The position numbers and the translations under genes were made by a program. A stretch of DNA of 64,000 nt. Source: Robiginitomaculum sp. (GTDB lineage Bacteria > Pseudomonadota > Alphaproteobacteria > Caulobacterales > Maricaulaceae). Under the pieces are notes generated by a model. The model worked only from the letters and a program-made list of their open reading frames with translations, was not told where the DNA came from and ran no database searches. How positions within the stretch are numbered: the stretch's first letter is position 1; every line of letters begins with the position of its first letter. Below are positions 22,334-31,035 of the stretch, piece after piece. The stretch covers positions 80,506 to 144,505 of the forward strand of contig NVWK01000012.1 of NCBI GenBank assembly GCA_002733605.1, in the 5' to 3' direction.

Positions 22334-23659
22334 ATGAAGTATTTACTACCAACTGTCGGCATTGTTGCGGCCAGCGCATTATTTGCATTTTCCACAACGT
22401 CCCAACATGCGATCGCCGTAGAAAAATCTACGCAGGAACGCACGTTTGAACAACTTGATCTGTTCGCGGATGTGTTGGCGCGTGTCCGTAATGATTATGT
22501 TGTCCCCGTGGACAATGCAGAGCTTATCGATGACGCGATTAACGGGATGTTGCAGGGCCTCGACCCCCATTCCAGCTATGTAAACCCCGAGCGGTTTGCG
22601 GATTTGCAAATCTCTACGTCTGGCGAATATGGCGGGTTGGGCATGGAAGTAACCATGGAAGACGGTGTGGTTAAAGTGGTTGCGCCTATCGACGAAACCC
22701 CTGCCAAAAAAGCCGGTATTTTATCGGGAGATTATCTGACAGCCATAGACGGGGAAAGTATTTTGGGGCTGGGCCTGAGCGAAGCGGTTGACCGCATGCG
22801 CGGCAAGCCCGGCGAAGCGATCACCGTCACGGTCATCCGGCGAGGTGAAGACCCGATGGATATCACCATGACCCGCGAAATCATCAAACCGATTGTTGTA
22901 CGACACCGGGTTGAGGACGGGGTCGGGTATTTGCGTATTTCACAATTTAACGAGAAAACGGCCGGGTCACTTGGTGAAGCCATCAAGGCCCTAAAGAAAG
23001 AATTTGGTGGAAAAATCCCGGGCATTGTTTTGGATTTACGCGGTAACCCCGGCGGCTTGCTTGACCAGTCCATAAAGGTCAGCAGTGCATTTTTGAACGG
23101 CGGTGAAGTTGTCTCCACACGTGGTCGCCACGAGAATGATACCGAGCACTATAATGCCAAACGCGGCCAGTTGTTGAAAGGTGTACCTGTTGTCGTCTTA
23201 ATCAATGGGGCAGCAGCGTCTGCGTCTGAAATCGTTGCCGGCGCCCTCCAAGACAGAAACCGGGCGCTGATCGTTGGCATGACGTCCTTTGGTAAAGGGT
23301 CTGTGCAATCTGTTGTACCGTTACGCAATGGCCGGGATGGTGCTTTGCGTCTTACCACTGCACGCTATTACACACCGGCAGGCCGGTCCATTCAGGGGAC
23401 GGGTATCACACCCGATGTTGCAATTTCCAAAGTGCATGATGATGGCAAAGGCAATGAAGGCCAGATATCCGAATCCGATTTGCCCAATGCGATTAAAAAC
23501 GAGCAGGCAGAAATGGAAGCCGCCGAAGACACATCCGAGATGGTTGTGGAATATCCCCCTGAGGATTTTGATGTTGAAGATGATTTCCAGCTTAAACGGG
23601 CTGTCGAAATTTTGAAAAATGGCACGTATAAGACCCTGCTTGCCGAAGCCAAAAGCTAG
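22334..23659 (+). CDS. ctpA: Carboxy-terminal processing protease CtpA (S41A), copy 1
   Basis: 441 residues, periplasmic. Signal peptide-like start; PDZ domain at about residues 90-180 ('GGLGMEVTMEDG', 'AGILSGDYLTAIDG'); S41 protease with catalytic Ser in 'AAASASEIVAGALQD' and Lys in 'SFGKGSVQSV'. Cleaves proteins near non-polar C-termini; in other bacteria substrates include PBP3 and cell-wall hydrolases. GGAGACACT precedes the ATG. Ends 10 bp before a second, very similar copy. Confidence 0.95.
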   Translation: MKYLLPTVGIVAASALFAFSTTSQHAIAVEKSTQERTFEQLDLFADVLARVRNDYVVPVDNAELIDDAINGMLQGLDPHSSYVNPERFADLQISTSGEYGGLGMEVTMEDGVVKVVAPIDETPAKKAGILSGDYLTAIDGESILGLGLSEAVDRMRGKPGEAITVTVIRRGEDPMDITMTREIIKPIVVRHRVEDGVGYLRISQFNEKTAGSLGEAIKALKKEFGGKIPGIVLDLRGNPGGLLDQSIKVSSAFLNGGEVVSTRGRHENDTEHYNAKRGQLLKGVPVVVLINGAAASASEIVAGALQDRNRALIVGMTSFGKGSVQSVVPLRNGRDGALRLTTARYYTPAGRSIQGTGITPDVAISKVHDDGKGNEGQISESDLPNAIKNEQAEMEAAEDTSEMVVEYPPEDFDVEDDFQLKRAVEILKNGTYKTLLAEAKS

Positions 23660-23669
23660 GAATAAAACC

Positions 23670-25007
23670 TTGGGTGCATCCTTAAAAAAACTGATGAAAT
23701 TCACGTCTCTTGTCGCCCTCGGGGCGGCACTTGGTGTGTCTGCGGCCACATTTGCAGAGCCAAATTCAAACGAAAATGCGCACAGCTATTACCAATTGGT
23801 CATTTTTGCGGACGTGCTCAGTCGTGTACAAGATGAGTATATAGAGGATGTTGATCCGGCCGATCTCGTTGCAGATGCCTTAAACGGGGCGCTCCGGTCT
23901 TTAGATCCTCACTCTCATTACTCGCCTCCGAAAGACTTTGAAAGACAGCAAGAAATTTCACGTCGGGAATATGGCGGCCTTGGAATCGAGGTCAGCATGC
24001 AAGACGGGTTTATCCTTGTTGGTTACGCCAATAAAGGCGCGCCTGCGGCACGCTCAGGTATAAAAGCCGGTGATCTTATCACCCATGTCGAGGGCGTCAG
24101 CATAAAGGACAAGGATTTAAGCGAAGCCGTCGAAAAAATGCGCGGTTTGGCCGGAGACCCGATCACAATTACAGTCAAAACCGCAGAAGATGAGCCACGC
24201 GATATTATCGTTGTGCGCGAAGTGGTTCAGGGTCGGGCCGTCCGCAACCGCATGTTCGAAGGCATGGGGTATATCTATCTGGAGACCTTTAACAATGCGA
24301 ATGTAGCCCGTGATTTGGGTGAAGCTATCGATATTCTAGAGGCCGAGCACGGCGGAAAACTTCCTGGGCTTGTTTTGGATTTACGCGGTAATGGCGGCGG
24401 GCTTTTGACCCAAAGTGTCGCGGTGAGCAGTTATTTTCTGGATGGTGGTGAAGTGTTGTCTGTGCGCGGACGACGTGCAGCAGATAATGATCGTTATCAC
24501 GCCGAACGGGGCGAAAAACTGGCGGGTGTACCTGTGGTGGTGCTCATAAGCGGCACCTCGGCATCTGCATCCGAAATTGTTGCAGGGGCCTTACAAGACC
24601 GTGGGCGCGCCCTGATTGTCGGCACCCAATCCTTTGGCAAAGGGTCCGTACAATCGGTCTATCCACTTAATAACGGCAAAGACGGCGCGTTACGTCTAAC
24701 AACAGATAGGTATTTCACCCCGTCCGGGCGGTCTATTCAGGGCCTTGGCATTACCCCCGATATTTGGGTTGAAGCTTTCCCCGACACTGGCCAAAACCGC
24801 ATTACGTTTCGCGAATCCAGTCTCGCCAATTCTTTGGATGCAATCATATTGGAAACGGAAGGCAACCCGAAGACGCACAAAGATGTTGAGCATGAATACC
24901 CGCCCGAAGATTGGGCCAGCGACCAAGACTACCAACTCCACCGTGCCGTCGAAGTCTTGAAAGCCGAGGATTTCAAGAGCCGTTTGCAGCACGCTTTCAA
25001 CGACTGA
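23670..25007 (+). CDS. Carboxy-terminal processing protease CtpA (S41A), copy 2, probable TTG start
   Basis: The track start (23619) lies inside copy 1 and gives a Pro/Arg-rich leader that is not a signal peptide. TTG 23670 has TAGGA about 8 bases upstream and yields 'MGASLKKLMKFTSLVALGAA', a proper signal peptide; ATG 23694 is the alternative but lacks a ribosome site. Domains mirror copy 1: PDZ ('GGLGIEVSMQDG'), Ser in 'TSASASEIVAGALQDRG', Lys in 'SFGKGSVQSVYPL'. Both copies keep their catalytic residues, so this is a working tandem duplication rather than a decaying one. 445 residues. Confidence 0.92.
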   Translation: MGASLKKLMKFTSLVALGAALGVSAATFAEPNSNENAHSYYQLVIFADVLSRVQDEYIEDVDPADLVADALNGALRSLDPHSHYSPPKDFERQQEISRREYGGLGIEVSMQDGFILVGYANKGAPAARSGIKAGDLITHVEGVSIKDKDLSEAVEKMRGLAGDPITITVKTAEDEPRDIIVVREVVQGRAVRNRMFEGMGYIYLETFNNANVARDLGEAIDILEAEHGGKLPGLVLDLRGNGGGLLTQSVAVSSYFLDGGEVLSVRGRRAADNDRYHAERGEKLAGVPVVVLISGTSASASEIVAGALQDRGRALIVGTQSFGKGSVQSVYPLNNGKDGALRLTTDRYFTPSGRSIQGLGITPDIWVEAFPDTGQNRITFRESSLANSLDAIILETEGNPKTHKDVEHEYPPEDWASDQDYQLHRAVEVLKAEDFKSRLQHAFND

Positions 25008-28912: not shown

Positions 28913-29305
28913 TTAAAGCGTTCCTTGAACCAGTTTCAGACCGTCAAGATGTTGGGCGGCGTCAAGGCTGTCATCACCTTCGGCCGCTGCCAAAGCCTGT
29001 TCGGCCTTGGTTATATCTTCGGCCAGAGCCTCGGCACTTAGATCGCTAAGTGGTGTGCATTGTTCGGCCAGAATGGTCAGGCCACTTGGCATCACATCGG
29101 CAAACCCGCCCTGAATCATATATTTGGTTTCAACGCCATCATTGAACACGGTGATCGCACCTGTGCGGATCGCGGCCATGAAGGGCGCGTGATCGGGTAA
29201 TACGCCGAAATCGCCCTCTGTACCCGGCACGTCAACCTGATCGACAAGACCGGAAAACAATTCGGCCTCAGGGGATACTAATGAAAATTGCAATTTATCT
29301 GCCAT
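28913..29305 (-). CDS. atpC: F1 ATP synthase epsilon subunit
   Basis: 130 residues. The N-terminal β-sandwich is clear ('LQFSLVSPEAELFSGLVDQVDVPGTEGDFG', 'LPDHAPFMAAIRTGAI'); the C-terminal helical part is Ala/Asp/Glu-rich. Rotor stalk subunit that couples and inhibits the enzyme. Last gene of atpHAGDC, separated from atpD by an unlisted small ORF. Confidence 0.95.
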   Translation of the reverse strand: MADKLQFSLVSPEAELFSGLVDQVDVPGTEGDFGVLPDHAPFMAAIRTGAITVFNDGVETKYMIQGGFADVMPSGLTILAEQCTPLSDLSAEALAEDITKAEQALAAAEGDDSLDAAQHLDGLKLVQGTL

Positions 29306-29311
29306 TTTACG

Positions 29312-29479
29312 CTACCTTAGCTTCGCCTCGAACATTGAAGCCGCTTTTTCAAACTTATCCCGACATCCCCTATTACAAAATCCAACCACTTGGCCTTTGT
29401 AAAGTGTCAGGCTATCCGCACTGACCGGATCGCCCGACCAAGGACATATATCATTGATACAGTCCTTGATATCGAGCAT
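29312..29479 (-). CDS. Small Cys-rich YHS/TRASH-like protein between atpD and atpC
   Basis: 55 residues, absent from the ORF track. It reads 'MLDIKDCINDICPWSGDPV' followed by 'YKGQVVGFCNRGCRDKF'. The pattern C-P-W-S-G...F-C-N-x-G-C-x-x-K-F resembles YHS/TRASH metal-binding modules; such short ORFs, sometimes mislabelled glutathione S-transferase, are recalled next to atpC in Caulobacterales. AAGGA sits 8 bases before ATG 29479; ATG 29488 is possible. The stop is 6 bp before atpC. Codon pattern is normal and it fills the gap exactly, so it is very likely translated with the operon. Role unknown; a metal or redox link to ATP synthase is speculation. Confidence 0.75.
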   Translation of the reverse strand: MLDIKDCINDICPWSGDPVSADSLTLYKGQVVGFCNRGCRDKFEKAASMFEAKLR

Positions 29480-29490
29480 CCCGCTCATCC

Positions 29491-31035
<1,545 letters not shown>

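Follow-up and report, generated by a model that had tools for sequence, protein, structure and literature searches.

The stretch of DNA analysed here (the window) is 64,000 nucleotides of a contig from Robiginitomaculum sp., and on its minus strand the gap between atpD and atpC, the genes of the F1 beta and epsilon subunits, is filled by a small open reading frame encoding a cysteine-containing microprotein. The initial annotation had described a frame of 55-58 residues with CPWSG and FCNxGC motifs, and it is present as described. The features of the region are:

29491..31020, minus strand: atpD (F1 beta), the upstream gene, from the open reading frame list and matches across Alphaproteobacteria
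29489..29492, minus strand: Shine-Dalgarno motif AAGG of the microprotein, overlapping the atpD stop codon, from the sequence
29312..29488, minus strand: YHS/TRASH-like cysteine microprotein frame, 58 codons from the first ATG; MSGMLDIKDCINDICPWSGDPVSADSLTLYKGQVVGFCNRGCRDKFEKAASMFEAKLR
29312..29479, minus strand: 55-residue form of the microprotein from the second ATG at 29479, from the AAGG spacing and homologue alignments
29453..29455, minus strand: codon of the invariant Asn12, in the place of the first YHS/TRASH metal ligand (Asp or Cys), from the alignment and comparison with the motif in PMC4626032
29432..29446, minus strand: C15-P-W-S-G19 motif with the first conserved Cys, from alignments
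29363..29380, minus strand: F37-C38-N-R-G-C42 motif with the second and third conserved Cys, from alignments
29315..29318, minus strand: Shine-Dalgarno motif AAGG of atpC, within the last microprotein codons, from the sequence
28913..29305, minus strand: atpC (F1 epsilon), the downstream gene, from the open reading frame list

The microprotein frame begins 2 nt past atpD (stop codon 29493-29491) with its first ATG at 29488, and its own stop codon (29314-29312) lies 6 nt ahead of the atpC start at 29305. The 55-residue product is likelier than the 58-residue form because the AAGG at 29492-29489 abuts the first ATG and is separated from the second by 9 nt, and the homologues, which align as conserved from residue 5, agree with this. 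The AAGG of atpC (29318-29315) sits at the same spacing of 9 nt before the atpC ATG and, lying within the end of the microprotein gene, gives a layout that would fit translational coupling. The good ribosome site claimed earlier holds for the window's genome but not generally, given that a recognisable Shine-Dalgarno motif precedes an in-frame start in only 31 of the 61 loci in which a microprotein occupies this slot. No RNA element was found at the atpD-atpC junction, and pattern matches to internal promoters and terminators in the region were close to chance level, with no excess.

At the N-terminus of the window's AtpD (30880-31020), a Lys/Ala-rich extension of about 45 residues precedes the conserved core; comparable extensions occur in loci L003, L006, L024 and L082. 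In L157 and L163 the atpD frames reach about 600 residues, with a Cys-containing start (DCRYCN...CGVCKP) before the beta subunit that gives no Pfam match above the cut-off. In four Sphingomonadales loci (L005, L100, L111 and L114) the epsilon subunit has only 84-85 residues, compared with about 130 in the window's order. Elsewhere in the window (22334-25007), two consecutive and similar open reading frames with an overlap of about 40 bases look, by eye, like carboxy-terminal processing peptidases.

The microprotein is a genuine conserved protein-coding gene. Scanning genome contigs gave 32 loci that carry a relative, the majority in the atpD-atpC gap, and the number grew when the window's order and Sphingomonadales were searched; in total, the slot is held in 61 loci, corresponding to about 50 distinct genomes of Sphingomonadales and GTDB-type Caulobacterales (Robiginitomaculaceae, Parvularculaceae and others). 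Homologues in the slot are 60-80% identical to the microprotein of the window. Within-genus pairwise dN/dS (Nei-Gojobori) ranges from 0.04 to 0.42, with most values at 0.04-0.26, chiefly 0.08-0.2, and one at 0.42, and although single values are rough because dS is near saturation, all are well below 1 and the microprotein is under purifying selection. Conservation across atp operons had been proposed as a check on the frame, with dN/dS near 1 as the sign against coding; the same slot is filled in the genomes of both orders, if patchily, and the ratios fall on the coding side. The remark that so short a frame is easily missed was also borne out, given that no NCBIfam family matches it and its Pfam match lies below the cut-off. 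No match to the microprotein was found among plasmids or viral contigs, and a literature search returned nothing on a YHS gene in the atp operon or on small proteins encoded there.

The aligned members (n = 55) have the motif N-x2-C-x22-C-x3-C, in which N12, C15, C38 and C42 are invariant; P16, S18, G19, R43 and F46 are among the other invariant positions, and Cys10 is frequent but not invariant. Left out of this alignment were two Robiginitomaculum antarcticum-like loci (L029 and L060), in which GCRD is replaced by ANFFSGGD, so that the third Cys is lost while the frame is kept. The motif has the same spacing as the ligands D178-x2-C181-x22-C204-x3-C208 in the YHS module of the Mycobacterium phlei adenylyl cyclase, which makes that enzyme copper-responsive (PMC4626032). 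The likeness to YHS (PF04945) extends to size, the GFCxxxC...F core and the ligand position three residues ahead of the first Cys, but at that position the microprotein has the invariant Asn12 instead of Asp (or the Cys also used in YHS/TRASH sites), it has no conserved His, and it is a stand-alone protein, whereas in the cyclase the YHS is a module of an enzyme. YHS is the only Pfam match, scoring 20.5 bits where the cut-off is 30.3, and is reached weakly at E<=0.1 by 51 of the 55 members; TRASH_HVO_1752_C is reached, also weakly, by 14. The YHS/TRASH-type resemblance suggested earlier thus stands for a genuine coding microprotein, albeit below the cut-off, and the microprotein is probably best described as a divergent YHS/TRASH-like protein and not as a certified member. 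Distant matches fall within frames of 640-930 residues that, as read from their sequence, encode heavy-metal P-type ATPases.

AlphaFold confidently predicts a small beta-beta-helix fold of two strands and a helix with a mean pLDDT of 89. Foldseek gave no significant match in the PDB (best E 0.33); the top rows, all individually weak (E >=0.33), are for the most part TRASH/YHS domains and include ribosomal L24e, phenol/toluene hydroxylases that carry a YHS domain, and ZMYM5 with its TRASH domain. With the TRASH domains of L24e, ZMYM5 and HVO_1752 (C-terminal domain) the microprotein has the Cys motif in common, and its predicted fold may be similar, with weak profile and fold matches. Searches for PDB relatives by sequence found none, and a fold search among viral proteins gave nothing significant.

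Many close homologues are not linked to atp genes. Among 385 genomes sampled across the class, strong matches occurred in 15, of which the window's own was the only one located in the atp slot. Two loci (L024 and L056) have a relative downstream of atpC, L037 has two modules in tandem, in L014/L200 the relative continues from a frame that reads by eye as GNAT-like, and some relatives stand alone. In 14 loci a gene for an FtrA-like regulator, combining DJ-1/PfpI with an AraC helix-turn-helix, lies head-to-head with the relative. Two of the FtrA-linked copies (L069 and L070) have damaged cysteine motifs and are apparently decaying in place. In L039 and L044 a clearly related CPYSG...GFCN..CRD module (about 47% identity over 34-40 residues) forms the C-terminus of a GST-like protein outside the atp operon, unlike the free microprotein.

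Presence is patchy even among close relatives of the window. In its genus, 7 of 12 atpD-atpC junctions contain the gene and 5 are empty and clean, with an atpD-atpC gap of 0-26 nt and no copy elsewhere in the same genomes; no convincing gene remnants were found in empty junctions. Mapped on a tree built from 136 AtpD sequences, the presence label needs at least 18 changes, a count that pools gains and losses and comes from a sample partly drawn by presence. Although part of a core operon, this junction is variable, with accessory genes gained and lost there. Other inserts of 0.35-1.1 kb were seen at several junctions of the window's order, with unrelated ones of 0.6-1.1 kb at L148-L150, L153, L160, L161, L166, L167 and L169. 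Where the slot is held, the microprotein is mostly inherited vertically with the operon, as indicated by the correlation of its distances with those of AtpD (Mantel r 0.50, reached in 0 of 999 permutations). All strong matches sampled in Sphingomonadales (15/15) and in the window's genus (7/7) are in the slot.

Patchy presence, lack of co-change with F1 and homologues elsewhere, taken together, lead us to read the microprotein as an independent small protein: the evidence says that its gene is an optional operon passenger, found in far from all members of two orders, and not a part of the ATP synthase. Our preferred explanation, to which we assign a probability of roughly 50%, is a free-standing metal-binding (or thiol) microprotein for which the atp operon provides a site of expression. 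The product would be a soluble, single-domain YHS/TRASH-type protein acting on its own, most likely binding one transition-metal ion (copper or zinc) via Cys15, Cys38 and Cys42, with Asn12 or Cys10 nearby, and its role may be that of a metal-binding, metal-buffering or thiol protein. Between atpD and atpC the gene is probably transcribed with its neighbours and coupled to them in translation, so that its level would follow ATP synthase production and the operon would serve as a steady expression site for an accessory gene. The purifying selection, the M. phlei spacing, the YHS/TRASH profile matches, the AlphaFold model and the P-type ATPase matches point to such a protein, and its independence from F1 is seen in the genus absences, the changes on the AtpD tree and the post-atpC, FtrA-linked, GST-fused and tandem copies, together with further loci across the class. 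Against it count the Asn in place of the first ligand and the variable Cys10, the non-significant Foldseek E-values, the R. antarcticum frames kept despite the lost Cys, and the complete slot occupancy of the strong matches in Sphingomonadales and the genus, a constancy of position beyond what a pure passenger would require.

A related but unlikely alternative is a thiol or electrophile-stress protein, in which the cysteines would take part in redox or covalent chemistry instead of stable metal binding. The FtrA-like neighbours fit such a role, as do the rhodanese that also lies beside the FtrA-linked relative in L066, the GST fusions and the replacement of a metal ligand by Asn. However, three Cys in the exact TRASH spacing and a predicted TRASH-like fold favour a metal site, and the FtrA contexts within one genus amount to a single syntenic event. 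Most of the FtrA-linked loci are one syntenic group, with L012, L028 and the pair L061/L066 separate.

The initial annotation had proposed a metal- or redox-responsive partner of F1, and we consider this, or an assembly factor whose finger would contact AtpD or AtpC and modulate the ATP synthase according to metal or redox state, quite unlikely. Retention of the slot in two orders with a spacing of a few nucleotides, the placement of every sampled strong member of Sphingomonadales and the genus, and the correlated AtpD distances would all suit a partner. They are outweighed by the clean absences in the genus, the repeated switches on the AtpD tree and the occurrence of the same family without atp linkage in many genomes. 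Furthermore, no column of AtpD or AtpC changes along with presence, the maximum being 4 of 13 sister pairs. The zeta inhibitor of Alphaproteobacteria (PF07345), likewise a small accessory protein related to F1, is present in holders and non-holders alike. It is a different family, encoded on another contig in the window's genome; the microprotein is not itself a zeta inhibitor, given that it has no PF07345 match and YHS is its only Pfam match, and a replacement for zeta is ruled out because zeta occurs irrespective of the microprotein. One further variant seems improbable: a dispensable, lineage-specific microprotein that senses metal or redox state and is made together with F1 would adjust ATP synthase activity or assembly upon copper, zinc or thiol change, with repeated gain and loss according to the needs of the habitat.

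Equally doubtful is a structural zinc finger for protein or RNA binding, L24e-like and with no sensing or buffering role. Ribosomal L24e-type proteins head the list of PDB matches, though with non-significant E-values, but the L24e site uses four Cys (PMC4626032) where the microprotein has three and an Asn in first place, and its sporadic distribution is unlike that of a ribosomal component. A chance open reading frame, to which the varied inserts at this junction in the window's order might have pointed, is ruled out for practical purposes by the same-slot homologues in about 50 genomes, with conserved sequence and low dN/dS across two orders.

The finding adds a conserved small gene, lacking an NCBIfam model and missed at the Pfam cut-off, to one of the best-studied bacterial operons. 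If copper or zinc binding holds true, the microprotein would offer a minimal single-domain YHS protein for studying the poorly understood chemistry of YHS/TRASH domains, and if a contact with F1 were to prove true, it would represent a novel type of regulation for the ATP synthase.
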